From assembly GCF_048771995.1 (NCBI RefSeq), contig NC_133026.1, forward strand, positions 150,869,001 through 150,933,000: 64,000 nucleotides of DNA. Reading direction: 5' to 3'. The notes under the pieces were generated by a model. It had not been told where the DNA came from. It made no database searches and saw nothing but the letters and a program-made list of their open reading frames with translations. The DNA is from Taeniopygia guttata (lineage: Eukaryota > Chordata > Aves > Passeriformes > Estrildidae). A program made the translations under genes and the position numbers. Numbering within the stretch: position 1 is the stretch's first letter; each line of letters starts with the position of its first letter. Positions 14,513 through 37,291 of this stretch are shown in pieces.

Positions 14513-14886
14513 ATGGCCCCGGCGCGCGGCCGCTCCACCCAAATCCCACCGTGCGTCCCCAAGCGCCAATTCCCGCCGGGATATTCCGACTCCCTCCTCT
14601 TCCTCTGCGCCCGCCGCATCGTCGCCCGTCACCCTCTGCCGGCGTTACCGGCGCCGCCCGCCCACCTCTACCCCGTCCTCTTCCAAGCCGCCTTCTTGGA
14701 CGGGCGGCCGTTGGTGCTGCGGGAGCTGGTGAGCGCGTGGCCCTTCCCGGTGCTGCACCTGCAGCGCCTGCTGGGCCGGCAGGAGCTGCTGCGGGACCAC
14801 CCCTGCAAGCTCTGCCTCCAGGCCGTCATCCTGGCCGTGGTGGCGCAGCTGCGCCGGCAGCTGGAGGAGCCCGGACGCCGCTCCAG
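14513..14886 (+). CDS. LRRC14: LRRC14, coding exon 1 of 3 (N-terminal region)
   Basis: The joined coding sequence 14513-14886, 19497-20129 and 25138-25711 is 1,581 bases (526 residues), close to the about 493 residues of mammalian LRRC14. I recognise it from SLLFLCARRIVARHPLPALP, VLRELVSAWPFPVLHLQRLL and the later repeats. LRRC14 is a PRAME-type leucine-rich repeat protein, reported as a CUL2 ubiquitin-ligase substrate receptor and as a negative regulator of the IKK complex in NF-kB signalling; it acts in the cytoplasm. This exon encodes residues 1-124 plus two bases of codon 125. The start sits in GCCGCCATGG and gives about 24 residues before the region that aligns with mammals. The exon ends CTCCAG|GTGGGT (phase 2). 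Its last about 100 bases recur three times in the next intron. Confidence 0.93.
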
Positions 14887-15966
14887 GTGGGTTCCGGCAC
14901 GGGCGAGGTTTTGGGGGGAACTTCTTGGCTTGGATGGGTTCTTCTTGGTTTTGATGGGTTCCTCCAGGTTTTGATGGTTACTTCTTGGTTTTGTTGAGTT
15001 CTTCCCATTTTTGGTGGCTTCTTCCAATTTTTAATGGTTTCTTCTTGGTTTTGATGGTTCCTTCCCATTTTTGATGGTTTCATAGATGCCATTTTCATGG
15101 TTCCTTCCCATTTTTGATGGTTCCTTCTCGTTTTCGATGGTTTCCTCCCATTTTTGATGGTTCCTTCCCATTTTTCATAGTTTCCTCCTGTCTCTGATGG
15201 TTCCTTCCCATTTTTGATGGTTTCTTCCCATTTTTGATGGTTCCTTCTCGTTATTGGTGGTATCTTCTCAGTTTCGTATAGTTCCTTCTTGGTTTGGATG
15301 GTTTCTTCCCATTTTTGATTGTTTCTACTTAGTTTTGATGGTTTCTTCCCGTTTCCAATGGTTCCTTCCCATTTTTGATGGTTCCTTCTCGTTTCCGATG
15401 GTTTCCTCCTGTCTTTGATGGTTCCTTCCCATTTTTGATGGTTTCTTCCCATTTTTGATGGTTCCTTCTCGTTTTTGGTGATGTTACCTCAGTTTCGGAT
15501 GGCTCCTTCATGGTTTTGATGGTTTCTTCCCATTTTTGATTGTTTCTTCTTAGTTTTGTTGGTTTCTTCCCATTTCCGATGATTCCTTCCCATTTTTGAT
15601 GGTTCTTTCTCGTTTCCGATGGTTTCCTCCCGTCTTTGATGGTTCCTTCCCATTTTTCATGGTTTCCTCCCATTTCTGATGGTGCCTTCCCATTTTTGAA
15701 GGTTTCTTTTCATTTTTGATGGTTCCTTCTCATTCTGGGTGGTTCCTTCTTGGCTTTGATGGTTCCTTCTCGTTTCCAATGGTTTCCTCCTGTCTTTGAT
15801 GGTTTCCTCCCATTTTTGATGGTTTCATCAATGCCATTTTCATGGTTCCTTCCCATTTTGATGGTTTCTTCCAATTTTTGATGGCTCCTTCTTGGTTTGG
15901 ATGGTTCCTTCCCATCTTTGATGGTTCCTTCCCATTCTTGGTGGTTTCCTCTTGGTTTTGATGGTT

Positions 15967-16086
15967 GGGGCTGCTGCGGGACCACCCCTGCAAGCTCTGC
16001 CTCCAGGCCGTCATCCTGGCCGTGGTGGCGCAGCTGCGCCGGCAGCTGGAGGAGCCCGGACGCCGCTCCAGGTGGGTTCCGGCACA
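15967..16086 (+). pseudogene. LRRC14: Copy 1 of the 3' edge of LRRC14 coding exon 1 with GT donor
   Basis: From CTGCTGCGGGACCACC at 15971 to CTCCAG at 16071 the sequence matches the end of the parent exon (14787-14886) and still encodes LLRDHPCKLCLQAVILAVV and what follows. It is followed by the same donor GTGGGT at 16072 and GGCAC, then diverges. No acceptor AG lies at its 5' junction, so it cannot be a normal internal exon. Confidence 0.92.
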
Positions 16087-17018
16087 GTTGTCGGCGTTCT
16101 TCCGACTTGTTCGGTGATCTCCAGGGTTTCTTCTTCTCAGTTTTGGTGGTTCCTTCTTGGTTTTGATGGTTTCCTCCCATTTTTGGTTGTTCCTTCTTGG
16201 CTTTGATGCTTTCTTCCAACTTTTGATGGTCCTTCTCGTTTCCGATGGTTTCCTCTTGTCTTTGATGGTTCCTTCTCATTTTTGATGGTTCCTTCATGTT
16301 TTTCATGGTTTCTTCCCATTTTTGCTGGTTCCCTCTTTGTTTTGATGGTTTCTTCCCATTTTTGGTGGTTCCTTCTCATTCTGGGTGGTTCCTTCTTGGC
16401 TTTCATGGTTTCTTCTCGTTTCTGATGGTTTCCTCCTGTCTTTGATGGTTCCTTCCCATTTTTGATGGTTTCATCAATGCCATTTTTCATGGCTCATTCC
16501 CAGTTTAATGGTTTCTTCTCATTTTTGATGGTTTCATCTCGTTTCCGATGGTTTCCTCCCATTTTTGATGGTTCCTTCCCATTTTTGATGGTTCCTTCTC
16601 GTTTTTGGTGGTGTCTTCTCAGTTTCGGAGGGTTCCTTCTTGGTTTTGATGGTTTCTTCCCATTTTTGATTGTTTCTACTTAGTTTTGATGGTTTCTTCC
16701 CGTTTCTGATGGTTCCTTCCCATTTTTGATGGTTCCTTCTTGTTTCCGATGGTTTCCTCTGGTCTTTGATGTTTTCCTCCCATTTTTGATGGGTCCTTCT
16801 CATTTTCGATGGTTCCTTCTCATTTTTGATGGTTTCATCAATGCCATTTTTCATGGTTCCTTCCCATTTTGATGGTTTCTTCCAATTTTTGATGGCTCCC
16901 TCTTAGTTTTGATGGTTTCTTCCCATCTTTGATGGTTCCTTCTCATTCTTGGTGGTTTCCTCTTGGTTTTGATGGTTTCCTCCCATTTTTGATGGTTTTT
17001 CCTTCTGGTTTTGATGGT

Positions 17019-17133
17019 TGGGGCTGCTGCGGGACCACCCCTGCAAGCTCTGCCTCCAGGCCGTCATCCTGGCCGTGGTGGCGCAGCTGCGCCGGCAGCT
17101 GGAGGAGCCCGGACGCCGCTCCAGGTGGGTTCC
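17019..17133 (+). pseudogene. LRRC14: Copy 2 of the 3' edge of LRRC14 coding exon 1 with GT donor
   Basis: The same fragment as the first copy, exon part ending at 17124 with donor GTGGGT at 17125. After GTGGGTTCCC it passes directly into the 20-bp array. Its 5' junction (TTTTGATGGTTGGGG) is the same as in the other two copies, showing that all three descend from a single junction event. Confidence 0.92.
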
Positions 17134-18336
17134 CATTTTTGGTGCTTTCTTCCCATTTTTCATGGTTTCTTCTAATTTTTGATGGTTTCTTCTTGGTTTT
17201 GATGGTTCCTTGCCATTTTTGATAGTTTCATCGATGCCGTTTTCATGGTTCCTTCCCATTTTCATGGTTTCTTCCCATTTTTGATGGTTCCTTCCGGTTT
17301 CCGATGGCTTCCTCCCGTTTTTGATGGTTCCTTCCCATTTTTGATGGTTTCTTCCCATTTTTCATGGTTCCTTCTCAATCTTGGTGGTTTCTTGCCATTT
17401 TTGGTGGTTCCTTCTTCGCTTTGATGCTTTCTTCCAACTTTTGATGGTTTCTTCTCGTTTACGATGGTTTTCGTCCATCTTTGATGGTTCCTTCCCATTT
17501 TTGAAAGTTCCTTCCCGTTTTTGGTGGTGTCTTCTCAGTTTTGGTGGTTCCTTCTCGTTTCTGATGGTTTCCTCCTGTCTTTCATGGTTTCCTCCAATTT
17601 TTGATGGTTCCTTCCCATTTTTCATGGTTCCTTCCCATTTTTGATGGTTTCCTCTCATCTCCGATGGTTTCCTCCCATTTTTGATGGCTACTTCCCATTT
17701 TTCATGGTTTCCTCCCATTTCTGATGGTTCCTTCCCATTTTTTATGGTTTCTTCCCATTCTTGGTGGTTTCTTGCCATTTTTGATGGTTTCTTCTTGTTT
17801 CCGATGGTTTCCTCTTGTCTTTGATGGTTTCCTCCCATTTTTGATGGTCCTTCCCATTTTTGATGGTTCCTTCTCGTTATTGGTGGTATCTTCTCAGTTT
17901 CGTATAGTTCCTTCTTGGTTTGGATGGTTTCTTCCCATTTTTGATTGTTTCTACTTAGTTTTGATGGTTTCTTCCCATTTCCGATGGTTCCTTCCCATTT
18001 TTGATGGTTCCTTCTCATTTTCGATGGTTTCCTTCCCATTTTTGATGGTTCCTTCTCATTTCCGATGGTTTCCTTCTGTTGTTGATGGTTCCTTCCCTTT
18101 TTTGATGGTTCCTTCCCATTTTCGATGGTTTCCTCCCATTTTTGATGGTTTCATCAATGCCATTTTTCATGGTTCCTTCCCATTTTGATGGTTTCTTCCA
18201 ATTTTTTATGGTTCCTTCTTGGTTTTGATGGTTCCTTCCCATCTTTGATGGTTCCTTCTCATTCTGGGTGGTTTCCTCTTGGTTTTGATGGTTTCCTCCC
18301 ATTTTTGATGGTTTTTCCTTCTGGTTTTGATGGTTG

Positions 18337-18515
18337 GGGCTGCTGCGGGACCACCCCTGCAAGCTCTGCCTCCAGGCCGTCATCCTGGCCGTGGTGGCGC
18401 AGCTGCGCCGGCAGCTGGAGGAGCCCGGACGCCGCTCCAGGTGGGTTCCGGCACGGACGAGGTTTTGGGGGGAACTTCTTGGCTTGGATGGGTTCTTCTT
18501 GGTTTTGATGGTTTC
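18337..18515 (+). pseudogene. LRRC14: Copy 3 of the 3' edge of LRRC14 coding exon 1 with donor and ~70 bp of intron
   Basis: The exon part ends at 18440 and the donor GTGGGT starts at 18441. This copy also keeps the parental intron start, including GAGGTTTTGGGGGGAAC and TTCTTGGCTTGGATGGG. It is therefore the longest and probably the closest to the original duplicate. Confidence 0.93.
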
Positions 18516-19496
18516 CTCCCGTCTTTGATGGTTTCTTCCAATTTTTGATGGTTCCTTCCAGTTTGTGATGGTTTCTTCCCATTTTTGATGGTTTCCTCCC
18601 ATCTTTGATGGTTTCTCCCCATCTTTCATGGTTTCCTCCCATTTTTGATGGTACCTTCTTAGTTTTGATGGTTCCTTCATGTTTTTGATGGTTGCTTCTC
18701 ATTTTTCATGGTTTTCTCCTTTCTTTGATGGTTCCTTCTCGTTTCCGATGGTTTCCTCCTGTCCTTGATGGCTTCTTCCCATTTTTGATGGTTCCTTCCC
18801 ATTTTTGATGGTTTCTTCCCCTTTTTTATTGTTTTTCTTCCTGTTTTTGATGGTTCCTTCCCAGTTTTGATGGTTTCTTCCCATTTTTGATGGTTTCCTT
18901 CTGTTGCTGATGGTTCCTTCTCCTTTTTGATACTTTCCTCTCATTTTTTGTGGTTTCCTCCTCTTTTTGACAGTTCCTTCTCATTTCCGATGGTTTCCTC
19001 CTGTCTTTGATGGTTCCTTCCTGATTTTGAAGGTTCCTTCCAGTTTTTGATGGTTTCTTCTCGCTTTTTATGGTTTTCTTCTGGTTTTGATGGTTTCTTC
19101 CCATTTTTCATCATTTCCTCCTCTTTTTAATGATTCCTTCCCTATTTTGATGGTTCCTTCCTGTTTTTTGATGGTTCCTTCCCATTTTTGATCATTTTCT
19201 TCTGGTTTTTGAAGCTTTCATCCCGTTCTTGATTGTTCCTTCCATTTCTTGATGGTTTCACCTCATTTTTGATGATTTCCTCTTATCTTTGAGGGTTTCT
19301 TCCCGTTTTTGATGGTTCCTTCCCGTTTTTGATGGTTCTTTCCCATTTTTGACGGTTCCTTCAGTTCTGTGATTGTTCACTCCAGTTTTTGATGACTCCT
19401 TCCTTCTTTTGATACTTTCTTCCCATTTTTTCCCCTTTTTTTCCCCGTTTTTGACCATTTCTTCTCATTTCCGACGCTTTCTCCCCATTTTCCCAG

Positions 19497-20129
19497 CTCC
19501 TGCCGCCTCCGCGTGCTGGACGTGACGGGAGTCCCGGATGATCCCTCGGGCCGCACTCCGGACGGGATGAACGCGCCCTGGTCCGGCACGGTGGCTTTGG
19601 CCAAGGCTTGCGTGGAGGTGTCCAAGCACCAACGGGAATTCCAACGCCGCGGATCCAAGCGGCACAAAGGCCGTTCCGGCACCGCCGCCGCGCCGCAACC
19701 GCCGGGCGTTGACGTCCACGCCGACCTCTTCGTCAACGGGACGTCCTACGGGATCCTGCGCGACGCCCTCCAGAGCGGCGCCGCCGGCCCGCTGCGCCTC
19801 AAGTGCCGCGAGTTCCAAGCGGAGAAACTCTCCTTGGCCGGAATCGTCAGCCTGCTGGAAACGCTGGATCCCTCCTGCGTGCGGAGGGTGGATCTGCGCT
19901 TCCGGAATTTGGGATTGACCGGGCTGTCGGTGATCCTGCCGCATCTCTCGCGCTTCCCGCAGCTGCGCAGCCTCAAGCTGCAGTACAGCAACGTGGACGT
20001 GCGGCGCCCGACGCCGGAATCGGCCATCGGGATCCGGTGCCTGGCCGGGCAGTTGGGAATGCTGCCCAGCCTCCGCGAGCTCAACCTGGGATCCTCCCGG
20101 CTCTCCGGGAACCTGCGCCAGATCCTCTG
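19497..20129 (+). CDS. LRRC14: LRRC14, coding exon 2 of 3 (linker and first leucine-rich repeats)
   Basis: An acceptor CCCCATTTTCCCAG ends at 19496. Joining AG|C restores a serine codon and reads SSCRLRVLDVTGVPDD, matching mammalian LRVLDMTG. The exon encodes residues 125-335 plus two bases. It includes a basic insertion (HQREFQRRGSKRHKGRSG) that looks longer than in mammals, then VDVHADLFVNGTSYGILRDA, PLRLKCREFQAEKLSL and leucine-rich repeats from about residue 250: VRRVDLRFRNLGLTGLSVIL, LRSLKLQYSNVDVRR and LRELNLGSSRLSGNLRQIL. The donor is CTCTG|GTGAGT at 20129/20130 (phase 2). It is GC-rich and free of repeat insertions. Confidence 0.94.
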
Positions 20130-20139
20130 GTGAGTTCCC

Positions 20140-23100
20140 GTTATCCCAATAATTTATGACTCGATGATTCCATCATCCCAGAATTCCATGATCACAAATT
20201 CCAAGATCCCAGGATTCTCCAAGACTGGACTTGATGATCTTGGAAGTCTTCTCCATTCTAGGTGACCCCATCATTCCAAGATGTTCTTATCCCAACATTC
20301 CGTTATCCCAATAATTTGACTCGATGATTCCATCATCCCATAATTCCATGATCCCATAATTCCACCATCCCATAATTCCACCATCCCATACTTCCACCAT
20401 CCCATAATTTCAGGGGTCTCAAAGGTTTGGCTCAATGGTCTTGGATGTCTTTCCCAAGCCGAGCGATCCCATGACTCCAGGATTTCCTTATCCCGGTGTT
20501 CCCGTGATTCCGTTATCCCGGCAGTTCGTGACTCGGTGGTTCCATTGTCCCAGAATTCCATGATCACCAATTCCAAGATCCCAGGATTCTCCAAGGCTGG
20601 ACTTGATGATCTTGGAAGTCTTCTCCATTCTAAGTGACCCCATAATTCCAAAATGTTCTTATCCCAATATTCCCATGATCCCAACATTCTGTTATCCCGA
20701 TCATTTATGACTCAACGATTCCATGATCCCATAATCCAAGATCCCAGCATTCTCTAAGGCTGGATTTGACAATCTTGGAAGTCTTCTCCATTCTAAGTGA
20801 CCCCACAATTCCAAAATGTTCTTATCCCAATATTCCCATGATCCCAACATTCTGTTATCCCGATCATTTATGACTCAACGATTCCACGATCCCATAATTC
20901 CACCATCCCATAATTCCACCGTCCCATAATTCCACCATCCCATAATTCCACCATCCCATAATTCCAGGGGTCTCAAAGGTTTGGCTCAATGGTCTTGGAT
21001 GTCTTTCCCAAGCCGAGTGATCCCATGACTCCAGGATTTCCTTATCCCGGTGTTCCCGTGATTCCGTTATCCCGGCAGTTCGTGACTCGGTGATTCCATG
21101 ATCCCACAATTCCGTGATCCCAGAATTCTGCCATTCCAAGATTCTCCAAGGATGAACTTGACCATCCTGGAGGTGTTTCCAACCTCAGCGATCCCAGAAT
21201 TCCAGGATTTCGTTATCCCAACATTCCCACGATCCCATCATCCCATAAATTCCAGTTCCCGTAATTCCTTAATTTCAACATTCCCAAAGGTTGGGCTTGA
21301 TGATCTTGGAGTCTTTTCCACCTTCAGTGGCTCCATGACCTCGTAACTCCATGATCCCGTAATTTCATCACTCCCTGATCCCAGAATCCCAATATCCCGA
21401 GATTCCACAATTCCATAACTCCACAATTCCACAATTCCCCGGCTCCGTGACCCCAAAATTCCCCGATTCTCAAAGGTACAACTTGACCTTCTTGGAGATC
21501 TTTCCCAACCTCACCCATCCCGTAATTCCATGATTCCATGACCACGTAACTCCACGACTCCGTAATCTCATGGATCCCTCATTCCATAACTCCATGAGCC
21601 CCAAATGCCAAACCTGATGGGCTTGGAGACCTTTCCCAACCTGAGTCATCCCAGAATTCCAAAATCCCAGGATCTTCAGAGGTCGAACTCGATGTTCTTG
21701 GAGCTCTTTGCCAACCTCAGCTATTCCACAATTCCATCATCCCATCATTCCATGATTCTCAAACCTTGAACTTGATGATCTTGGAGACCTTTCCAACCTG
21801 ACTCATTCCATAATTCCATGATCCCGTCATCCCAAAATCCCAGGATTTTCAGAGGTCGAACTCGATGTTCTTGGAGATTTTTCCCAACCTCAGCCATTCC
21901 ACCATTCCATGGCTCCAGGATTCCATCATTCCATGACTTTCAATATTGGAATCCACAATTCCATGATCCCATCATTCCATAAGTGTCAAACCTTGACCTT
22001 GATGGTCTTGGAGACCTTTCCCAACCCCAGCAGCCATTTTGTAATTCCATGATCCCATCACTCCAAAATCCCAGGATTTTCAGAGGTTGAACTCGGTGTT
22101 CTTGGAGATGTTCGCCAACTTCAGCCATCCCACAATTCCATGATCCCATCATTCCATGATTCTCAAACCTTGACCTTGATGATCTTGGAGACCTTTCCCA
22201 ACCTGACTCATTCCATAATTCCATGACCGCGTAACTCCAAAATCCCAGGATTTTCAGAGGTCAAACTCGATGTTCTTGGAGCTCTTTCCCAACCTGAGTA
22301 ATTCCATAACTCCATGACCCCCTCAATCCAAAACTCCAGGATTTTAAGGATTTGAACGCGATGTTCTTCCAGTTCCTTCCCAACCTCAGCCATCCCACAA
22401 TCCCATGGCTCCATCATTCCATGATTTTCAAACCTTAATCTTGATGTTCTTGAAGACCTTTCCCAACCTCAGCCGCCATTTTGTAACTCCATGAACCCAT
22501 AACTCCAAAACTCCAGGATTTTCAGAGGTCAAACTCGATGTTCTTGGAGCTCTTCCCCAACTTCAGCCATCCAACAATTCCATGGCTCCATCATTCCATT
22601 ATTCCATGATTTTCTAACCTTGAACTTGATTTTCTTGGAGACCTTCCCAACCCCAGCTGCCATTTTGTAACTGCATGATCCCATCATTCCAAAACTCCAG
22701 GATTTTAAGGATTTGAAGTCGATGTTCTTCCAGTTCTTTCCCAACCTCATCCATCCCACAATCCCATGATTCCAGGCTCTGATTATCCTCTCTCTTTTCC
22801 CTCCCGCCAGCGACCTCCGGGCGCCGTTGGAAAGTTTGGAATTGTCCTTCTGCTCGCTGCTCCCCGCCGACCTCGCCTTCCTCTCCCAAAGAGTCTCTCC
22901 ATGGCTCCGGAGCTCTGGGATCCGCCATTCCACGGTGCCAGGGCTCCGTGATCCATCATCCCATCATTCCATGAGTCTCAAACCTTGACCTTGATGTTCT
23001 TGAAGACTTTCCCAACCCCAGCCGCCATTTTGTAACTGCATGATCCCATCATCCCAAAATCTCAGGATTTTCAGAGGTCGAACTCGATGTCCTTGGAGCT

Positions 23101-25080
23101 CTTCCCCAACTTCAGCCATCCAACAATTCCATGGCTCCATCATCCCATCATTCCATGAGTTTCAAACCTTGAATTTGATGATCTTGGAGACCTTTCCAAC
23201 CTGACTCATTCCATAATTCCATGACCATGTAACTCCAAAATCCCAGGATTTTCAGAGGTCGAACTCAATGTTCTTGGAGCTCTTTCCCAACCTGAGTAAT
23301 TCCATAACTCCATGACCCCCTCATTCCAAAACCCCAGGATTTTAAGGATTTGAACTCGACGTTCTTCCAGTTCTTTCCCAACCTCATCCATCCCACAATT
23401 TCATGATCCCATCATTCCATGATTCTCAAATCTTGACCTTGATGGTCTTGAAGACCTTTCCCAGCCTCAGCAGCCATTTTGTAACTCCATGACCCCATCA
23501 TCCCAAAATCCCAGGATTTTCAGAGGTCACACGTGAAGTTCTTTCTTGACGCTCTTTCCCAAACTCAGCCATTCCACAATTCCATGATCCCATCATTCCA
23601 TGAGTCTCAAACCTTGACCTTGATGTTCTTGGAGACCTTTCCAACCCCAGCCATTCCATAATTCCGTGACCGCGTAACTCCAAAATCACAGAATTTTCAG
23701 AGGTCGAACTCGATGTTCTTGCAGCTCTTTCTTAACCTGAGTAATTCCATAACTCCATGACCCCCTCATTCCAAAACCCCAGGATTTTAAGGATTTGAAC
23801 TCGATGTTCTTCCAGTTCCTTCCCAACCTCATCCATCCCACAATCCCATGGCTCCATCATTCCATGAGTCTCAAACCTTGACCTTGATGTTCTTGAAGAC
23901 CTTCCCAACTCCAGCCGCCATTTTGTAACTCCATGAACCCATAACTCCAAAATCCCAGGATTTTCAGAGATCAAACTTGATCCTCTTGGAGCTCTTTCCC
24001 AACCTCATCCATTCCACAATTCCATGGCTCCATCATTCCATGAGTCTCAAACCTTGACCTTGATGTTGGTGGAGACCTTCCCAACTCCAGCCGCCATTTT
24101 GTAACTCCATGATCCCATCATTCCAAAATCCCAGGATTTTCAGAGGTTGAACTCGATGTTCTTGGAGCTCTTCCCCAACTTCAACCATCCCACAATTCCA
24201 TCATCCCATCATTCCATGAGTCTCAAACCTTGACCTTGATGGTCTTGAAGACCTTTCCCAACCTCAGCTGCCATTTTGTAACTGCATGATCCCATCCTTC
24301 CAAAATCCCAGGATTTTCAGAGGTCAAACTCGATGTTCTTGGAGATGATTCCCAACCTCAGCCATTCCATGATTGCAATGTTGGATTCCAAAATTTCACA
24401 ATTCCATGATCCCATCATTCCATGAGTCTCAAACCTTGACCTTGATGGTCTTGAAGACCTTCCCAACCCCAGCAGCCATTTTATAACTCATGACCCCATC
24501 ATTCCAAAATCCCAGGATTTTCAGAGGTCGAACTCGATGTTCTTGGAGCTCTTTCCCAACCTCATCCATTCCACAATTCCATGATCCCATCATTCCATGA
24601 TTCTCAAACCTTGACCTTGATGGTCTTGAAGACCTTTCCCAACTCCAGCCGCCATTTTGCAACTCCATGAACCCATCATTCCAAAATCCCAGGATTTTCA
24701 GAGGTCGAACTCGATGTTCTTGGAGATGTTTCCCTACCTCAGCCATTCCATGATTGCAATGTTGGATTCCACAATTCCATGATCCCATCATCCCATGATT
24801 TTCAATCCTTGACCTTGATGTTCATGGAGACCTTCCCAACTCCAGCCGCCATTTTGTAACTCCATGAACCCATAACTCCAAAATTCCAAGATTTTAAGGA
24901 TTTGAACGCGATGTTCTTGGAGCTCTTTCCCAACCTCAGCCATCCCACAATTCCATCATCCCATCATTCCATGAGTCTCAAACCTTGACCTTGATGGTCT
25001 TGAAGACTTTCCCAACCCCAGCCGCCATTTTGTAACTCCACCATCCCACCATCCCACGACTCCCAAACCTCTCCCGCCTT
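20140..25080 (+). repeat. Satellite-like array of CR1 LINE 3' ends in LRRC14 intron 3
   Basis: Early units read GGACTTGATGATCTTGGAAG then TCTTCTCCATTC and ATTCCATGATCCC words. This is the well-known CR1 3' terminus (GGACTTGATGATCTTGGAGG, TCTTTTCCAACC, then an 8-bp ATTCTATG-type tail) with CCATG in place of CTATG. The block recurs about every 75-100 bp for 4.9 kb. In the second half it is organised as dimers of about 180-190 bp, marked by GCCGCCATTTTGTAACTCC at about 22470, 23021, 23914, 24093, 24845 and 25021. No CR1 coding sequence is present; only the tail has been amplified, in + orientation. One LRRC14 exon-edge copy is embedded at 22811. Confidence 0.83.
22811..22893 (+). pseudogene. LRRC14: Copy of the 5' edge of LRRC14 last exon with splice acceptor
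   Basis: TTTTCCCTCCCGCCAG at 22795-22810 followed by CGACCTCCGGGCGCCGTTGG duplicates the real acceptor and exon start at 25138. Identity runs for about 80 bases to CTCTCCCA at about 22888, then the sequence falls back into the CR1-tail array. The acceptor looks usable. If spliced from the exon ending at 20129, it would encode CDLRAPLESLELSFCSLLPA, leave the LRRC14 sequence after about 27 residues and stop in the array, giving a truncated protein. Confidence 0.92.
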
Positions 25081-25137
25081 TCCCCGGCCGATCCCAACCT
25101 TCCCGTGGCCTCACCTCTCCCTTTTCCCTCCCTCCAG

Positions 25138-25711
25138 CGACCTCCGGGCGCCGTTGGAAAGTTTGGAATTGTCCTTCTGCTCGCTGCTCCCCGCTGACCT
25201 CGCCTTCCTCTCCCAGAGCTCCCACGCCGCGTCCCTCAAACGCTTGGACCTGAGCGGCCACGACTTCTCCCAGGGGCTGCTGGAGCCGCTGCGGCTGCTC
25301 CTGGAGGAGACCTCGGCCTCGCTGCTGCACCTGGATCTCATGGAATGCCGCATGGCCGACGCCCAACTGGCCGCGCTGCTGCCGACGCTGCGCCGCTGCC
25401 GCCGCCTGCGCTTCCTGGGCCTCTACGGCAACTCCCTGTCCACCGCCGCGCTCAAGGATCTGCTGCGCCAAACCGTGGAGCTGCCGGATCTCCGATTGGT
25501 CGTTTATCCCTTCCCGGCCGATTGTTACAAACCGGAACCGCCGCGCCGCGTGCCGGGATCCCGGCGGATTTACGAGGAACCCATGGACGGCGAACGTTTG
25601 GCGGCGTCCACCGCCGAGATCCACCAAATGTTGGCCGATTCCGGCAGAACCGACCTGGTGTGGACTTACAACCCCTACGGCCACGGAACCATGGACTACT
25701 TCTCCTTGTGA
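25138..25711 (+). CDS. LRRC14: LRRC14, coding exon 3 of 3 (C-terminal leucine-rich repeats)
   Basis: The acceptor is TTTTCCCTCCCTCCAG, ending at 25137; TG|C restores a cysteine. The exon encodes residues 336-526. Leucine-rich repeats are visible as LESLELSFCSLLPADLAFL, LKRLDLSGHDFSQGLLEPL, LLHLDLMECRMADAQLAALL and LRFLGLYGNSLSTAALKDLL. They are followed by LRLVVYPFPADCYKPEPP, IYEEPMDGERLAASTAEIHQ and the family C terminus ending DYFSL, with TGA at 25709-25711. Mammalian LRRC14 also ends DYFSL. The whole exon is GC-rich, in sharp contrast to the flanking repeats. Confidence 0.95.
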
Positions 25712-25789
25712 GCCGGGAAAAGCTCGGAGCCGCCGAAAACGCCGGCGCCGAAATCCGGGCATTCCTTGCCGCGTTCCAGTCGTTTTATT

Positions 25790-26530: not shown

Positions 26531-26532
26531 AT

Positions 26533-26785
26533 CAGAATTGCCTTTTCGTGGCCAAATTCGGGAACGACTCCGGAGACGATTCCGAGCTGCTGGACTGGAA
26601 ATTCCCAAAATTCCTTGGCAAGGAGCTGTGGATCCATGGAAAAAGGAGCAGGTTCCTGGCAGGAATCCCACGGAGCAGGAAATTCCCAAAGGATCGACCC
26701 CGTCGGAAAAATCCGCGCGGAAGCGTCTTCCACGGGAACGACGTCTCGGAGAAATCCGCGGAAAAATCCTTCACATAAATGAGAA
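26533..26785 (+). other. Unique island in the LRRC14 3' UTR region with an acceptor-like 5' end
   Basis: About 240 bases of non-repetitive, CpG-containing sequence follow TTTTCCCATCAG. One + strand frame stays open for about 80 codons (containing GNDSGDDSELLDWKFPKF), ending at 26778. I do not recognise the peptide. Because the LRRC14 stop lies upstream, the simplest reading is unexpanded 3' UTR; an alternative 3' exon is possible but unsupported. Confidence 0.4.
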
Positions 26786-29700: not shown

Positions 29701-29790
29701 GGATGGAGAAATCCATGGAAAACTCCCAAAAATGAGAAATCCACGGAAAACTCGCGGTGGGATGGAGAAATCCATGGAAAACTCCCCTGG
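26786..29790 (+). repeat. ~28-bp minisatellite GAGAAATCCATGGAAAACTC
   Basis: This 3-kb array has a basic unit of about 28 bp, ATGAGAAATCCATGGAAAAC plus TCCCAAAA. Alternative linkers are TCTTTCCCATAA, TCGCGGTGGGATGG and TGCCCAAA. Each unit carries a CCATGG palindrome. Very long minus-strand open frames (up to about 290 codons of SMDFSFLGVFHGFL phrases) are produced by the near absence of stop triplets in the unit and are not a gene. The array probably lies in the LRRC14 3' UTR. Confidence 0.93.
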
Positions 29791-29870
29791 AAAAACCGGG
29801 AACGAGGGAATTTGGGGGAGGGAAAAGTTGGATTTGGGTTTTTTTTTTATCCTGCTCTGATTCCATTGGA

Positions 29871-29876
29871 AATAAA
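29871..29876 (+). terminator. LRRC14: Candidate LRRC14 polyadenylation signal AATAAA
   Basis: A canonical AATAAA lies in a unique 130-base stretch between two arrays. A GT-rich TTTGTCGTGTC element follows about 25-35 bases downstream, as expected for a cleavage region. It is the best + strand polyadenylation site between the LRRC14 stop and the C8orf82 promoter, and would give a 3' UTR of about 4.2 kb, mostly repeats. Confidence 0.6.
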
Positions 29877-29929
29877 CTCATCCCACCCCAAATCCCGAAT
29901 TTGTCGTGTCCGGCCGGGAATTCCCCCGA

Positions 29930-31415
29930 TCCCGTTATTTTTCCCCTCATTCCAATTATTTTCCACCTAATTTTGGAATTTTTCCACTTAATTTTGGTAT
30001 TTTTCTGCCTAATTTTGGTAGTTTTCCACCTAATTTTGGTATTTTCCCACCTAATTTTGGTGTTTTCCCACCTAATTTTGATATTTTTCCACCTCATTTT
30101 CCTCCTCATTTCCCAATTTCCCCCTCATTTGTCAAATTTCCTCCTAATTTTCCAATTTTCTTCCTAATTTTCCAATTTTCTGCCTAATTTTCCAATTCCC
30201 GCCCCCCATTTTCCAATTTTCCCCCTCATTTTTCAATCCCCCCCCATTTTCCCACTTTTTTTTAGATTTTCCCCCTCATTTTCCATATTTTTTTCCCCTC
30301 AATTCCAATTTTTCCCTCATTTTTCCAATTTTTTGACATTTCCCCCTCATTTTTCATCATTTTCCCCAATTTCCCATCTTTTTTCCCAATTTCCCCCCTT
30401 ATTTTCCCAATTTTTTGAGATTTTTCCCTCTCATTTTCCAATTTTCCCCCATTTTCCCCCTAATTTCATAATTTCCCCCCAAATTTTCCAATTTTCTGCC
30501 TAATTTCCCAATTTCCCCCTCATTTTCCATCTTTTTTTCCCAATTTCGCCCCATTTTCCAACTGTTTTGAGATTTTCCCCCTCATTTCCCAATTTTACCC
30601 CCCATTTTTCCAAATTTTCCCCTCATTCCCAATTTCCCCCCTCATTTTCCCACTTTTTCCCAATTTTCCCCCAATTTTCCATCTTTTTTCCCAATTTCCT
30701 CCCCAAATTCCCAATTTCCCCCCCAATTTTCAAATTTTCTGCCTCATTTTCCAATTTTCCTCCTTCATTTCCCAATTTTAGCCCCCATTTCATAATTTCC
30801 CCCCAATTTTCCAATTTTCTGCCTAATTTTCCAATTTCCCCCCTCATTTTCCATCTTTTTTCCCAATTTCCCCCTCATTTTCCAACTTTTTTTATATTTT
30901 CCCCCTCATTTCCCAATTTCCCCCCTCATTTCATAATTTTCCCCCCTAATTTTCCTATTTCCCCCTCATTTTCCCAATTTTTTGAGATTTTCCCCCTCAT
31001 TTTCCCAATTTTTTGCGATGTTCCCCCTCATTTCCCAATTTCCCCCTCATTTTCCCAATTTTTTGAAATTTCCCCCTCATTTTCCATCTTTTTTCTCAAT
31101 TTCCCCCTCAATTCCCAATTTTCCCCCTCATTTTCCCACTTTTTCGAGATTTTTCCTCTCATTTTCCATCTTTTTTCCCATTTTTTCCTCTCATTTTCCC
31201 CATTTTTTTCAGATTTTCCCCCTCATTTCCCCACTTTTTTTCCCCAATTTTCCCACTTTTTTCCAATTTTCCCCCTCATTTTCCCCGTTTTTTTCCAATT
31301 TTCCCCCTCATTTTCCATCTATTTTCCCAATTTCCACCTCATTTTCCCCCTTTTTTCCCAATTTTTAACCATTTTCCCACTTTTTTCCCAATTTTTTGCC
31401 TTTTTTTTTTTTTTT
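29930..31415 (+). repeat. ~22-bp C/T minisatellite TTTTCCCCCTCATTTTCCCA
   Basis: A polypyrimidine-rich array with unit TTTTCCCCCTCATTTTCCCA plus ATTT; early units read TTTTCCACCTAATTTTGGTA. It occupies the spacer between LRRC14 and C8orf82. The + strand is almost pure C/T/A with very few G. The F/P/S-rich open frames are repeat artefacts. Confidence 0.9.
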
Positions 31416-31806
31416 CCCCTGAGGGCAAAAAGGGCAAAATGGCGGCGGGGGGGCGGAACCAATAGCGGATCTATTGTGGGGGGGGAAGTTTATGAAGTCG
31501 CTTTTTTTAAATCTCCCCTATGAAAAACACTTGGTGAATCCTATATGCTCTATAATTCTATATAATCCATAATTCTATAGAATCCATAATTTTATAAAAT
31601 GTGGAAATTTTATAAAATTCTATAAAATCCCCCCCCTCCCCGGGCCTTTTCTCCTCCCACTTCCGCTCCCTCCCCGGAACCTTTTCGCCGCCGCACACGC
31701 GCGGTGCCCGCGGATCGCGGTCCCCCAGGGGGTCACTTCCGGCGGGGCTGTCGCTGTCGCCTGTCGCGACAGGAGGAGGCGGCGGGGCCGAATCGCGACA
31801 GTCGCG
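31416..31806 (+). promoter_or_regulatory. C8orf82: C8orf82 promoter and 5' leader
   Basis: A CCAAT box lies at 31459-31463 in a G-rich block. A short A/T repeat of TATAATCCATAATTCTATAG type spans about 31550-31630. Two ETS-type motifs follow, ACTTCCG at 31659 and ACTTCCGG at 31735-31742, typical of promoters of nuclear genes for mitochondrial proteins. The leader just before the ATG is dense in TCGCGA, including the perfect palindrome CTGTCGCGACAG at 31761-31772. The transcription start was not located; it is probably near the ETS sites. Confidence 0.7.
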
Positions 31807-31923
31807 ATGAGGGCGGGACCGGTGCTGCGGCTCTGCGCCCTCCCCGGGCTGAGCTACCGGCAGGGCCAGCGGCCCGAGCCCGGCATCCGCGAGTATTTCT
31901 ATTACCTGGATCTGCACGGGCAG
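31807..31923 (+). CDS. C8orf82: C8orf82 (UPF0598), coding exon 1 of 3
   Basis: The joined exons 31807-31923, 33403-33451 and 36785-37236 give 618 bases, 205 residues, close to the about 216 residues of the human protein. This exon encodes residues 1-39: a short basic, hydrophobic N terminus (MRAGPVLRLCALPGLSYRQG), then EPGIREYFYYLDLHGQ, the family signature (human IREYFYWIDLHGQ). The N terminus could be a mitochondrial targeting sequence; that is inference. The molecular function of UPF0598 proteins is not known to me. The start is the only ATG in frame upstream of the signature, with G at -3. The donor is CAG|GTGAGG (phase 0). Confidence 0.9.
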
Positions 31924-31929
31924 GTGAGG

Positions 31930-32262
31930 GCGGCGAGCGGGGATCGATAACCATCGATAACCATCGATAAGGATCGATAACCATCGATAGGGGATCGATA
32001 ACCATCGATAAGGGAGGGATAAGGATCGATAACGGTCGATAAAGGGTCGAGAAGGGGTTGATAAGGGATCGATAGGGAGAGAGAACGATCGATAAGGGAT
32101 TGATAAGAGGTCGATAAGGGAGGGATAAGGATCGATAACGGTGGATAAAGGGTCGAGAAGGGGTTGATAAGGGTCCGATAGGGAGCGAGAACAATCGATA
32201 AGGGATTGATAGGACGTCGATAATGGAGGGATAAGGATCGATAACGATCGATAACGGACCCA
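31930..32262 (+). repeat. ATCGATAA-rich repeat at the start of C8orf82 intron 1
   Basis: A short-period array of ATCGATAACC, ATCGATAAGG and GGTCGATAAAGGGTCGAG words begins a few bases after the splice donor. Larger copies of about 120 bp (GGGAGGGATAAGGATCGATA) recur two or three times. TATCGATA-like palindromes are abundant. The base composition differs completely from the A/C-rich array that follows. Confidence 0.88.
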
Positions 32263-33320
32263 AATTAAACCCACATTAAAACCAAATTAAAACCCAAAAA
32301 AATCCCCCCAAAAAGCCAAAAAAAAAAAAACCAACCCAAAAAGATCCAAAAAAGATCCCAAAAAAACCCCAAAAAGAGCCCAAAAAAACCCCCAAAAATC
32401 CCCAAAAAAGATCCCAAATAAACCCCAAAAAACCCAAAAAGATCCTGAAAAAAAACCCCAAAAAAACCCCAAAAAAAACCCCCAAAAATATCCCACAAAA
32501 ACCCAAAATATCCCAAAAAAATCCCAAAAAATCCCCAAAGAAGATCCCAAATAAACCCCAAAAAACCCAAAAAGATCCTGAAAAAAACCCCCAAAAAACC
32601 CCAAAAAACCCCAAAAATATCCCACAAAAACCCAAAATATCCCAAAAAAAGCCCAAAAAGATCAAACCCCCCCAAAACACCCCAATAATATCCAAAAAAC
32701 CCCAAAAAATATCCCAAAAAACCCCAAAAAATATCCCAAAAAAATCCCAAAAAAACCCCAAAAAGATCCCAAAAAAATCCCAAAAGATCCCAAAATATCC
32801 CCAAAAAACCCCCAAATTATAAAAAAACCCCAAAAAGATCCCCAAAAATACCCCCAAACCCCCCCCAAAAACTCTCCAAAAAACCCCCCAAAACCCCCCA
32901 AAAAAACCTGAAAAAGTCCCAGAAAAATCAAAAAAAAACCCCCAAAAAATAAAAAAAATTCCAAAAAATCCCCGAAAAACCCCCAAAATGTCGCAAAAAA
33001 CCATAAAAAATCTCCCAAAAAAACCCACAAAAAAACAACAACAAAAAAAACCCACAAAAACCCCCAAAAAACCTTCAAGAAATAAAAAAAAAAAACCCAA
33101 AAAGCCCCCAAAATCCCCCGAAAATCCCCCCAAAAAAACCCAAAAAACAAAACAAAAAAACCCAACCAAAAATCCCACAAAAAATCCCCCCCCAAAAAAA
33201 AGAACCAAAAAAACCCCAAAAACATCCCCAAAAAATCCCAAAAACCCCCAAACCCCCCCCAAAAAACCCCAAAAAGATCCCCAAAAAAACCCCAAAAACC
33301 CCAAACCCAAAATTTTGATT
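32263..33320 (+). repeat. A/C-rich low-complexity array, C8orf82 intron 1
   Basis: Runs of CCC or CCCC separated by four to seven A (CCCCAAAAAACCCC, ATCCCAAAAAAATCCC) continue for 1 kb with almost no G on the + strand. Embedded larger duplicates (CCCAAAAAGATCCTGAAAAA at about 32442 and 32565) show tandem units of about 120 bp. The minus strand has continuous G-quadruplex potential. The minus-strand GFFGIFWGFF frames are artefacts. Confidence 0.9.
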
Positions 33321-33402
33321 TTTCTGGGGGTAAAATCCCCAAATTTTGATTTTTTTGGGGTAAAATCCCCCAAATTTTTAATTTTTTCCCATTTTTTTGC
33401 AG

Positions 33403-33451
33403 CTGTTCCTGGACGACGCCAAAGTGAAAAACTTCACCACGTGTTTCCGAG
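33403..33451 (+). CDS. C8orf82: C8orf82 (UPF0598), coding exon 2 of 3
   Basis: This 49-base exon has acceptor ATTTTTTTGCAG ending at 33402 and donor CGAG|GTACCC at 33451/33452. It encodes LFLDDAKVKNFTTCFR (residues 40-55) plus the first base of an aspartate codon completed by exon 3. Human has the closely similar LFLDDSKMKNFITCFKD. Confidence 0.92.
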
Positions 33452-33455
33452 GTAC

Positions 33456-33840
33456 CCAATTAATTAGGCACCTCCCTAATTAGTCACCTCGTTAATTATT
33501 CACCTCCTCGATTATTCACCTCGTTAACTATTGACATTGTTAATTATTCACCTCCTTAATTAGTCAACTCCTTAATTATTCACCTTCTTATTTATTCACC
33601 TTATTAATTATTCACCTCATTAATTATTCAATTTTGTAATTACTCACCTTGGTAATTATTAACCTCGTTAATTAGTCATCTTAATTATTCACCTTGTTAA
33701 TTATTTGCCTCATTAATTATTCAGCTCTTTAGTTATTCACATCATTAATTATTAATTATTCACCTCCTTTATTTTTTCCCTTGTTAATTATTAACGTTGT
33801 TAATTATTCGCCTCCTTATTTATTCACCTCCTTAATTATT
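33456..33840 (+). repeat. ~16-bp A/T minisatellite TTAATTATTCACCTCC at the start of C8orf82 intron 2
   Basis: Tandem TTAATTATTCACCTCC units, with variants GTTAATTATTCACCTT and TTAATTAGTCA, start within five bases of the donor at 33452. Like the ATCGATAA array in intron 1, it is replaced abruptly by an A/C-rich array. Confidence 0.9.
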
Positions 33841-34979
33841 CACTGCAAAAAATGTAAAAAACCTCCAAAAAAAACCCCAAAAAAATCCCAAAAAAAGTCA
33901 AGAAAATCACCAAAAAATCCTAAAAAAAAACCCAAAAAAATCCCAAATACCCCAAAATCACCTCCAAAAAACCAAAAAAATCCCTCAGAAAACACACAGA
34001 AAATGCTACAAAAACCACCTGAAAACACCCCAAAAAAATCCCAAACAAACTACAAAAATCCACCAAAAAAATCACCAAAAAATCTCAAAAACCCCCCAAA
34101 AACCCCAAAAACATCCCCAAAAAACTGCAAAAAAAACCCCAAAAACAAAAAAAAAAAAAACCCAAAAAACTGCCATAAAATCCCAAAAAACCCCCAAAAA
34201 TTTAAAAAATCAAAAAAATTTTAAAAACCAAAAAAACCCTGAAAACATCCCGAAAAAATCCCCAAAAAATCAAATAAATTTTAAAAAACCCCCAAAAAAC
34301 CCAAAAACCCCCCAAAAAATCCCCTCCCAAAAAAACCCTAAAATTCCCAAAAAAACCCCAAAAAATCCCCAAAAAAAGAAAATTTAAAAAAACCCCAAAA
34401 AATCCAAAAAACCCCAAAAAACCCATAAAATCAAAAAAACCAAAAAAAACCAAAAAAACCTGAAAAACCACAAAAAAAAACCCCAAGAAACAAAAAAAAT
34501 CCCAAAAAAATCCCAAATATCACCAAAAATCCCCAAAAAAACCCCAAAAAATCAAAATAAAAACAAAAAAATTTTTAAAAAATCCCAGAAAACCCCCAAA
34601 AAAACCCAAAAATCACAAAAAAATTAAAAAATAGAAAAAAATTCAAAAAACCCAAAAAATCAAAAAAAATCACAAAAAATCCCAAAGAAACCCAAAAAAA
34701 TCCAAATAAAAACCGAAAAATTGAAAAAAATCCCAAAAATCCCAAGAATCCCAAAAAAAACCCAAAAAATCACAAAAAAATCAAAAAAATTGAAAAAAAA
34801 ATCCAAAACCCAAAAAAAATCCCAAAAAAATCCCAAAAATCCCCCCAAAAAAATCCCAAAAAAATCCAAAAAATCACCAAAAATCCCCAGAAACCCCCAA
34901 AAAATCCCAAAAAAACCCAAAATCCCCCCAAAACACCCCCAAAAACCCCAAAACCCCAACTCTCCCCCCTCTCCCGCAG

Positions 34980-35030
34980 TCGCCGCCTTCCTGTCGTCCT
35001 TCTTCTCCCGCCTGCAGCGGAACCAGGGCC
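34980..35030 (+). pseudogene. C8orf82: Copy 1 of the 5' edge of C8orf82 exon 3 with splice acceptor
   Basis: CTCCCCCCTCTCCCGCAG ends at 34979 and is followed by about 50 bases matching the start of exon 3. In the parental phase it encodes VAAFLSSFFSRLQRN where the gene has DAAFLSQFFSRLQRN. It then dissolves into the A/C array. It has a plausible acceptor and would open a frame of more than 90 codons into the repeat. Confidence 0.92.
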
Positions 35031-35841
35031 AACAAAAAAACCCAAAATCACCTCCAAGAAATCCCAAACCACCTCCAAAAAACCCCCAAAACCATTGTAA
35101 AACCCCTGAAAACTCCACAAAAATCACTCCAAAAATCCCAAGAAATCCCAAAAAACCCCAAAAAATCCCCAAAGAAATCCCAAAAACCCCCATTAAAAAA
35201 CCAAAAAATCCCAAAAATCCTCCAAAAAAACCCAAAAAAATCCGCAAAAAACCCCATAAAAAATCCACCAAAAATCCCAAAAAAATCAAAAAAATCCCCC
35301 AAAAAATTAAAAAAAAAAACCCATAAAAATCTGCAAAAAATCCCATAAAAAACCCGAAAAAAACCCCAAAAACCCCTAAAAATAAAAAAAATGTAAAGAA
35401 ATCAAAAAGATCCCAGAAAATCTAAAAAATAAAAAAAAAATCAAAAAAAATCAAAAAAATAAAAAAAATTTTGAAAACCCCAAAAATACCAAAAAACAAC
35501 AAAAAAATTTTAAAAAACCCCAAATATCCCAAAAAACCCCAAAAAATCAAAATAAAACCCAAAAAATTAAAAAAAATATCCCAGAAATCCCAAAAAACCC
35601 CAAGAAAAATCAGAAAAAAAACCCTCATAAAAATATCAAAAAAAATCAAAAACCCCCATAAAAATCCCCCAAAAAATCCCCAAAAAACGCCAAAAAAATC
35701 CAAAAAAAAATAGAAAAAAAATCCAAAAAAACCCCCAAAAAATCCCAAAAAATCCCAAAAAATCCCAAAAAAAACCCAAAATCCACCCAAAACACCCCCA
35801 AAAACCCCCAAAACCCCAACTCTCCCCCCTCTCTCCCGCAG

Positions 35842-35894
35842 TCGCCGCCTTCCTGTCGTCGTTCTTCGGCCGCCTGAAGCGGAACCGGCGCCAC
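35842..35894 (+). pseudogene. C8orf82: Copy 2 of the 5' edge of C8orf82 exon 3 with splice acceptor
   Basis: CCCCTCTCTCCCGCAG ends at 35841; the following bases encode VAAFLSSFFGRLKRNRR. It is slightly more diverged than copy 1 but shares its GTC (valine) junction codon and flanking CCCAACTCTCCCCC, so copies 1 and 2 are closer to each other than to exon 3. Confidence 0.92.
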
Positions 35895-36784
35895 CAAAAA
35901 CCCAAAAAAAACCCGAAAAAACCCCCAAAATCGCCTCCAAAAAACCCAAAAAAATCCCTCACAAAACACCCAGATAATGCTACAAAAACCACCTGAAAAT
36001 GCCCAAAAAAATCCCAAAAAACTACAAAAATCCACCAAAAAATAACCACCAAAAAACCCAAAAAATTCCCCAAAAAAAAACCCAACCCAAAAAAACCCCA
36101 AAGATCCCCAAAAAAGCCAAAAAATTAAAAAAAAAAACAGAAAAAAACCCCAAAATCCCATTATAAACCCCAAAAAACCCCAAAAAATCACCAAAAAATC
36201 CCAAAAAACCCCAACAATTCCAAAAAAAACCCAAAAAACCACCAAGAAATCCCAAAAAAACCCAAAAAAATCACAAAAAAACCCCCAAAAATCCCAAAGA
36301 ACACAAAAATAAAAAAAAATCCCAAAAAACCAAAAAAATCCCCCAAAACCCCAAAAAACACCAAAAAAATCAGAAAAAAAGAAAAAAAAAAAAAAACAAA
36401 AAAAAAACCCCAAAAAAATCCCCTCAAAAACCCATAAAAATCCCAAAAAATCCCTAATAACCACAAAAAAATCCCAAAAAACCCGAATAAAATCCAGACA
36501 GAATCCCCAAAAAATAAAAAAAAAACCCTAAAAAAATCCTAAAAAATAAAAAAAATTCCCAAAACCATCCCCAAAAAAATTCCAAAATATCTCAAAAAAA
36601 TCCCAAAAAACACCATAAAAACCCCAAAAAAATCACAAAAAAACCCCAAAAAAACCCCAAAAAATCCCAAAAAAATCCCAAAAAAATCCCAAAAAAACCC
36701 CAAAAAATCCCAAAAAATCCCAAAAAAATCCCCAAAAAATCCCAAAAATCCCAAACCTCTAAAACCTCTCCCCTCTCTCCGCAG

Positions 36785-37236
36785 ACGCCGCCTTCCTGTC
36801 CCAGTTCTTCTCCCGGCTCCAGCGGAACGTCTCGGGCCGTTTCCGTTCGCGGTTCCCGTTCGTGTCGCGCTGCGGCCGCGAGCGGAATTTCCTTCGCTGC
36901 GCCGACCTGCCCGTGGTCTTCACCCACCTCCTGCCCGGCGGCGCCGAAATCGCCTTCGGCGGTGCCGGCGCGGCGCTGACGGTGCCGTTCCGACCCGAGG
37001 CGCTGGCGGCGCTGCCGGAGAACGGGCGGTTCTACCACCCGGCGCCGGCGCGGCTCGGCGGCGCGGGATTGGTGCGCTCAACGTTGGCCCAAGAGTTGAG
37101 TTGGGCCTTGGTCTTCGGCCACGGCCCCGCGGAGCCGCCGACGCATTTTCGGTGGCGCGGGAAGGAGGTTCGGCTCAGCCCAGAGGTTTTGGTGGCCGTG
37201 AGGGAGGAGAGGGCGCGGAGGGAGGAGGGGCGGTGA
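36785..37236 (+). CDS. C8orf82: C8orf82 (UPF0598), coding exon 3 of 3
   Basis: The acceptor is CCCCTCTCTCCGCAG, ending at 36784; G|AC restores aspartate 56. The exon encodes residues 56-205: DAAFLSQFFSRLQRN, FPFVSRCGRERNFLRC, ADLPVVFTHLLPGG, FYHPAPARLGGAGLVRSTLA and QELSWALVFGHGPAEPP, ending in a basic tail REERARREEGR before TGA at 37234-37236. The CGRERNFLRC (from residue 85) and YHPAP..GG.GLVRS (from residue 139) blocks are family hallmarks. From about 37052 (residue 146) to the polyadenylation signal this exon has been copied 17 times downstream. It is very GC- and CpG-rich. Confidence 0.93.
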
Positions 37237-37285
37237 CGCCGAAAAAATTGGAGTGGGAATGGTCAAGAAAGGCAAAAAATCTACA

Positions 37286-37291
37286 AATAAA
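37286..37291 (+). terminator. C8orf82: C8orf82 polyadenylation signal AATAAA
   Basis: AATAAA lies 50 bases after the stop in CTACAAATAAATGAC. The same context is preserved in most downstream exon copies, consistent with it being part of the duplicated unit. No clear GT-rich downstream element follows; the sequence becomes A/C-rich. Confidence 0.65.

Follow-up and report, generated by a model that had tools for sequence, protein, structure and literature searches.

In a 64,000-nucleotide stretch of the Taeniopygia guttata genome (the window: positions 150,869,001-150,933,000 of the 152.5-Mb contig NC_133026.1, assembly GCF_048771995.1), exon edges of two genes, LRRC14-A and C8orf82, were found again as directly repeated copies inside the tandem arrays that adjoin them. 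This pattern is the sequence or exon stuttering named in chicken by Hron et al. 2026 (Genome Biology and Evolution (GBE) evag038, PMC12954441), and it is met again here in a region that may or may not belong to their published list. The families were probably founded by head-to-tail duplication of DNA across the border between exon and array, followed by array turnover. A preliminary description of the window had proposed the pattern as a new process of exon-edge capture; the phenomenon had in fact already been published, and the need for a special process was not supported: a plain tandem duplication with one breakpoint in the exon and one in the array gives the same properties.

Exon edges and their copies in the window

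The region examined comprised 264 kb around the window, and all coordinates are given on the window scale (position 1 is the start of the window). Source edges, copies and arrays were placed as follows.

14782..14890, + strand: source, last 105 bp of LRRC14-A coding exon 1 (exon 14513-14886) and the donor
14887..19496, + strand: LRRC14-A intron 1, an array of 20-bp monomers with larger units that bear the exon edge
15967..16085, + strand: exon 1 edge copy 1, intron 1 (blastn, 99.2% over 119 bp)
17020..17133, + strand: exon 1 edge copy 2, intron 1 (blastn, 99.1% over 114 bp)
18336..18514, + strand: exon 1 edge copy 3, intron 1, with the longest shared intron flank (blastn, 98.3% over 179 bp)
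20130..25137, + strand: LRRC14-A intron 2 array
22740..22960, + strand: exon 3 edge copy in intron 2, flanks common with the LRRC14-B copy (sequence alignment)
25114..25218, + strand: source, acceptor and first 81 bp of LRRC14-A exon 3 (exon 25138-25711)
33452..36784, + strand: C8orf82 intron 2 array
34897..35023, + strand: C8orf82 exon 3 5' edge copy, intron 2 (80.8% over 130 bp)
35745..35885, + strand: C8orf82 exon 3 5' edge copy, intron 2 (77.3% over 141 bp)
36700..36828, + strand: source, first 44 bp of C8orf82 exon 3 with the acceptor and array before it (blastn, junction view)
37052..37330, + strand: source, 3' end of C8orf82 exon 3 with stop codon and AATAAA
37919..57286, + strand: intergenic array with 17 full copies of the C8orf82 3' edge (blastn)
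39646..39788, + strand: partial 18th copy, corresponding to source 37183-37330 (87.2% over 148 bp)

When exons were compared with the window by blastn, the edge of LRRC14-A exon 1 gave three copies, each 99.1% identical over 109 bp with an E value of about 3e-51. These are identical to one another, and each starts at source base 14782 beside similar letters on the array side. The exon 3 edge (25138-25218) gave a single copy at 22811 (97.5% over 81 bp). With its flanks, this copy aligned with the corresponding copy in a second gene, LRRC14-B, at 97.7% over 222 bp and with the real LRRC14-A edge at 96.2% over 105 bp.

The 5' edge of C8orf82 exon 3 (36786-36828) has copies at 34981 (86%) and 35843 (81%). 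Both matches extend into the acceptor and the array (81% over 130 bp and 77% over 141 bp, respectively), and both copies end near 36828, beside similar array-side letters. Full copies of the 3' edge start at 37919, 38809, 40446, 41559, 42613, 43710, 44651, 46056, 47175, 48085, 48938, 50638, 51691, 53352, 54912, 56002 and 56996. All 17 begin at exon base 37052 and are preceded by identical letters on the array side. Because this edge spread into intergenic DNA, splicing is not needed for the copying.

The copy numbers given in the preliminary description (3, 1, 2 and 17) were confirmed by blastn, with the partial eighteenth copy in addition, and all copies in the window lie on the + strand, include the exon-repeat boundary and stand on the repeat side, as described there. 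The span had been ended at 36850; the fourth family extends to ~57.3 kb. Its "four independent events" hold as four founder edges, but both LRRC14 edges are common to the inverted LRRC14-B gene. A poly(A) signal had been ascribed to every 3' copy: 14 of the 17 full copies have AATAAA no more than 90 bp past the copied stretch, whose source ends at 37230, and those at 46056, 47175 and 53352 lack it there. These three share another tail, in which no AATAAA occurs in the stretch checked, and make up a second array subtype.

The exons that supply the copies are whole where this was followed: the LRRC14-A coding exons read open up to the stop codon, and C8orf82 exon 3 is open with a PF14956 (DUF4505) match at 2e-45, above the cut-off.

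Recurrence in neighbouring genes

As read from the sequence, the genes would be ordered ARHGAP39, LRRC14-A, C8orf82, LRRC14-B (inverted), RECQL4 and GPT. RECQL4 gave a Helicase_C match above the cut-off and a PDB match to 5lst at 2e-19; GPT gave Aminotran_1_2 above the cut-off and a PDB match to alanine aminotransferase 2 at 4e-32. The two LRRC14 genes are taken to be such from the preliminary description and synteny, the PDB having yielded only leucine-rich-repeat proteins, and ARHGAP39 is presumed, with a RhoGAP match just below its cut-off. The labels FOXH1 and ZFTRAF1 are likewise presumed. LRRC14-B lies on the minus strand to the right of the window at 65.9-71.1 kb (65893-71085; L015:1893-7085 on the piece scale), inverted relative to LRRC14-A (14513-25711).

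Forty-three exons of these six genes were set by hand, and their letters alone were searched against both strands of the region. Note that some borders of RECQL4 exons R1, R3, R4, R11, R13 and R16 are uncertain, that LRRC14-B exons 1 and 2 were set one base too long, and that GPT exon G2 was set one base too far 5'. Copies were found at 14 edges, 74 in total, and every one has the orientation of its source and lies on the side of the edge that it faces. The edges (with numbers of copies) are LRRC14-A exon 1 3' (3) and exon 3 5' (1), C8orf82 exon 3 5' (2) and exon 3 3' (18), LRRC14-B exon 1 3' (1) and exon 3 5' (1), RECQL4 R11 5' (2), R12 3' (5), R15 5' (5), R17 5' (9) and R20 5' (4), and GPT G2 5' (17), G4 5' (5) and G7 3' (1). 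Two weaker edges, RECQL4 R10 and GPT G8, surface once intron flank is added. The pattern is general locally, as the preliminary description had it, recurring in LRRC14-B, RECQL4 and GPT within 100 kb to the right of the window.

The remaining matches among those listed belong to the LRRC14 A/B pair, to one weak distal match of LRRC14-B exon 1, and to array-like motifs in RECQL4 R3, R5, R11 and R16 on both strands (24 listed each for R3 and R5, which gave 117 and 28 matches). Reversed exons, used as a control, gave any match in only 3 of 43 cases (RECQL4 R3, R5 and R18, all repetitive in composition). The splice site was copied too in all families whose junctions were viewed, with the exception of the R11 copy at 92929, which starts five bases inside the exon. 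Eight 5' edges and three 3' edges counted as independent strong splice edges, a bias that is not significant (p 0.23). Copies differ from their source, and also from one another in eight of the nine families compared; the C8orf82 exon 3 5' and RECQL4 R20 families have decayed to 81-91% identity.

The most regular family is that of GPT G2, in which the first 47 bases of the exon and the acceptor stand 17 times in succession, 96-100% alike, at a spacing of 76-116 bp. Its units are separated by variable numbers of an array monomer of ~10 bp. The 48 copied bases comprise 47 exonic bases and the last base of the acceptor. In the GPT exon-edge units (143115-144775; L022:9115 to L023:775), TCG/GTGTCA follows 45 coding bases; if this GT acted as a donor, each unit would be an in-frame mini-exon.

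The core of the screen of Hron et al. was then rerun on the hand-set exons and introns (blastn-short, at least 20 bp, >42.1 bits), leaving aside their multi-source exclusion and manual review. It returned 53 matches above 42.1 bits, 51 of them proximal (in adjacent introns) and 2 distal. Forty-nine of the 51 proximal matches have the same orientation, among them all of the 45 that lie no more than one base from the exon border they face. This border proximity is 88%, or 45 of 49 if two antisense matches are set aside, and the paper's statistic is >90%. The six non-border matches are the two antisense matches, which are of the R3 array motif, one R11 match that starts from base 6, and three R12 matches that end 4-6 bases short. 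Three shuffled controls gave 3 matches with a maximum of 34.2 bits. Border copies were found in 11 of 37 introns, at a threshold that misses C8orf82 exon 3 5' and RECQL4 R20.

The expectation that copies concentrate in long array introns was borne out locally: copies occur in 13 of the 24 introns that measure 1.5 kb or more and in 0 of 15 shorter ones (Fisher p 0.0004), an association that is partly circular. Median intron length was 4610 bp with copies (n = 13) and 1445 bp without (n = 25; Mann-Whitney p 0.004). This last test excluded the weak RECQL4 R9-10 intron, which the 1.5-kb table counts as copy-free. Both comparisons were made inside the array-rich end region of one contig, and long introns that lack copies occur there as well.

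Origin of the copies

Tandem duplication is the leading explanation on the strength of the two-unit layouts in LRRC14-B, the flank matches and the shared breakpoints. LRRC14-B offers the simplest and most direct case. In its intron 2, a whole unit is repeated in register with adjoining ends: 68018-67241 and 67211-66417 are 89.2% identical over 796 bp, and the same exon 3 base ends both. Fourteen of 16 fifty-base windows along these units are 81-100% alike, and 29 unmatched bp (67240-67212) lie between them. The layout is less clear in intron 1, where units 70898-70048 and 70043-69194 adjoin. The LRRC14-A exon 3 copy was also considered as a lone insertion, which was rejected because LRRC14-B has a matching copy and a tandem unit.

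In a flank test of 15 families, random sites of the same intron served as background for the stretch that lies 12-132 bp past the splice site; the C8orf82 3' family, which has no intron, was skipped. In 10 of the 15, the best copy has an intron flank that scores above at least 99% of these sites. The exon breakpoint is common to within two bases in nine of ten multi-copy families, and judged from their sequences the families in the window look like single founder junctions that were later multiplied. Copies are closer to one another than to the real edge in six of nine families, which makes it less likely that most copies were captured separately from the exon. This was not so for RECQL4 R17, GPT G2 and GPT G4, whose copies may be young or may have undergone conversion with the real edge.

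We propose that a segment with one end in the exon and the other in the adjacent tandem array would be duplicated head-to-tail in DNA. The outermost copy would remain attached to the rest of the exon, leaving the mRNA unharmed, while the array would retain the inner copy and the splice site or 3' end that it bears. Array turnover, by unequal exchange or slippage between larger units, could then multiply or scramble the inner copy. That only edges are copied would follow, because this is the sole class of exon-touching tandem duplication that spares the gene; such duplications survive since the outermost copy keeps the exon whole. We infer both the founding breakage or replication step and the role of selection.

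Several results count against this explanation. Along the array part of the LRRC14-B intron 1 units, identity is 58-80% in 9 of 14 windows and 86-98% in the other 5, which is near array background, yet the exon part is 98% alike, so that the tandem model needs either rapid turnover within the array or conversion that acted on the exon part. Five of the 15 families fell below 99% in the flank test. Random sites were as good in 40% of cases for LRRC14-A exon 3, 26% for RECQL4 R12 and 14% for GPT G7; the weak RECQL4 R10 family, at 100%, is clearly contrary, and LRRC14-B exon 1, at 6.6%, is borderline. For LRRC14-A exon 3, however, the missing flank is supplied by the B gene, since in LRRC14-B the real exon 3 edge is 96.7% identical to the copy (22740-22891) over 152 bp. 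Note that the test pits the best copy against single random sites and so favours families with many copies; counting individual copies, for example, one of three in LRRC14-A exon 1 and three of five in GPT G4 exceed the background maximum. Breakpoints are not always shared, in that the GPT G4 copies stop at exon positions 65, 68, 84 and 96, and the partial C8orf82 3' copy begins elsewhere than the rest. ARHGAP39, with three introns >1.5 kb, has no copies of its 6 exons, and a further 40 kb with 4 recognised exons gave no edge copy in an adjacent intron (a ZFTRAF1-like exon there has three distant GC-rich matches). The length association also loses weight because copies themselves lengthen introns.

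The families that lack matching flanks at the 99% level (RECQL4 R10, R12 and GPT G7) speak for capture by template switching. Under that scheme, a replication or repair fork pastes the exon edge at a distant array site without the intervening stretch, as in fork stalling and template switching or microhomology-mediated break-induced replication (FoSTeS/MMBIR), and turnover spreads the copy. The 29 unmatched bp at the LRRC14-B exon 3 junction and the short unmatched letters that precede the C8orf82 3' copies would also fit. We consider template switching unlikely, given the matching intron flank in 10 of 15 families and the head-to-tail units that LRRC14-B retains, although it or slippage may have acted at some founder junctions. 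The LRRC14 copies might instead have come from the inverted second gene by ectopic exchange and not from the adjacent exon, since the LRRC14-A copy matches the real B edge further upstream than the real A edge (152 versus 105 bp) and the A/B exon mosaics are as expected after conversion. But both genes have the matching intron copy with the same junction, for which one duplication before the A/B split, or exchanged after it, suffices. The same pattern occurs in C8orf82 exon 3, of which genome searches covering 1.14 Gb in 41 contigs found no second gene copy, and in RECQL4 and GPT exons, which have no second copy in the 264 kb searched; ectopic exchange is thus an improbable source. LRRC14 exon 2 was found at two places in the genome search (A and B) and at no others.

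Replication stress from G-quadruplexes (G4) or GC-rich sequence, which through GC content or DNA structures is among the routes proposed by Hron et al. (PMC12954441), could be the driver, and the three copy-bearing GPT introns are rich in G4 motifs (6.6-20.7 per kb). No G4 motif occurs in the copy-bearing introns 1 of LRRC14-A, 1 and 2 of LRRC14-B and R12-13 of RECQL4, and GC of copy-bearing introns spans 0.32-0.64. The four introns without a motif led us to reject GC or G4 as a requirement, and as the driver in general it seems a poor candidate. Collapsed or mis-joined repeats must be considered because such arrays are hard to assemble. Assembly error is nevertheless very improbable: the copies differ from their source and, in eight of nine families, from each other (the three LRRC14-A exon 1 copies being the identical ones), and Hron et al. 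report that the tandem structure of one stuttering gene, PHF8, was checked in raw nanopore reads (PMC12954441). Equally hard to credit, if not slightly more so, is that copies were retained as splice decoys or alternative ends. They do bear acceptor AG, donor GT or AATAAA, but copy number ranges from 1 to 18 with no common layout, and the two families mentioned above have decayed.

Known systems and further observations

Satellite higher-order repeats resemble these arrays in having units far longer than the monomer, a common internal landmark and tandem spread; the landmark here differs in being a piece of the adjacent exon. Intron gain by tandem genomic duplication (PMC4974935) is alike in that an intragenic tandem duplication alters exon-intron structure. 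As described there, however, a new intron arises, whereas existing introns grow here, as seen in the DNA sequence.

The closest system is that of Hron et al. (PMC12954441), who reported 1,345 hits in 236 introns of 115 chicken genes. Of the introns, 190 lie on dot chromosomes against 36 on macrochromosomes, and 183 of 192 exon-stuttering introns vary in length. According to that paper, the copied part is lateral, bears the donor or acceptor and is directly repeated through the adjacent intron, which is rich in simple repeats; the source lies at the exon border, there are one to tens of copies, and the exon stays whole, as it does here in LRRC14-A and C8orf82 exon 3. Its mechanism is treated there as speculative (repair under replication stress, or meiotic conversion), and the main text does not name LRRC14, RECQL4, GPT or C8orf82. 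The present region differs in several respects. The chicken cases lie mostly on dot chromosomes, a tendency and not a requirement, whereas this block is on a 152-Mb contig, ~1.6 Mb from its end. The published screen covered introns, whereas a terminal 3' edge was copied into intergenic DNA here. Repeats are described there as not seen crossing into exons, whereas array-like motifs occur within RECQL4 exons here. Stuttering was found there in 3.4% of dot-chromosome introns and here in 11 of 37, in a region that is non-random and hand-annotated. What may go beyond the published description is the 3' gene end copied into intergenic DNA, the close clustering of cases towards one end of a very large contig, the readable founder units and the exonic array-like motif.

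These loci provide a readable anatomy, two-unit duplications with both ends placed, for a mechanism that is open in the literature. They point to tandem duplication at the DNA level, the outer copy being spared by selection, and make a need for splicing or G4 less likely. In such regions gene prediction could be led astray by the copied splice sites, which also offer ready material for cryptic splicing.

In-frame runs of a motif like the GGGAATTTC array motif were seen in the coding sequence of RECQL4 R16 (L019:7373-7542) and R11 (L018:76-250). Compared with human RECQL4, R16 has a linker that is read from GGGAATTTC repeats, in a weak alignment (E 0.03); we tentatively regard this as an array-coded linker predicted from the sequence. 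Exon edges and arrays could even form one exchanging system, with edges entering arrays, monomers entering exons and concerted copies writing changes back into coding sequence. We think this doubtful, but if it were true, stuttering would be a source of protein change besides intron length.

The exons of LRRC14-A and LRRC14-B form a mosaic of 40-base windows that are mostly 92-100% or 60-82% identical, with abrupt switches, as would be expected after gene conversion. Window positions 10772-10883 are 78% identical to a minus-strand site at 73824, close to where RECQL4 begins, and are perhaps a relic of a shared LRRC14/RECQL4 promoter region beside the A copy.

Coverage by Tandem Repeats Finder (TRF) is 0.77-0.90 in every 10-kb bin across the window. 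In the wider region it is 0.01-0.60 per 10 kb on the left and 0.76-0.95 everywhere to the right of about -20 kb. Near 60000, where the C8orf82 array gives way to the next block, GC skew changes sign, being -0.78 at 59-60 kb and +0.97 at 61-62 kb. The array-poor flank from -99999 to -26000 (L005-L012) holds dispersed pieces of up to ~470 bp on both strands, mostly 70-79% alike, which are probably an interspersed repeat. A local family at -11041 to -7087 (L013-L014), found as islands outside TRF repeats, has 21-24 matches per island on one strand, the best of them at 87-96% identity.

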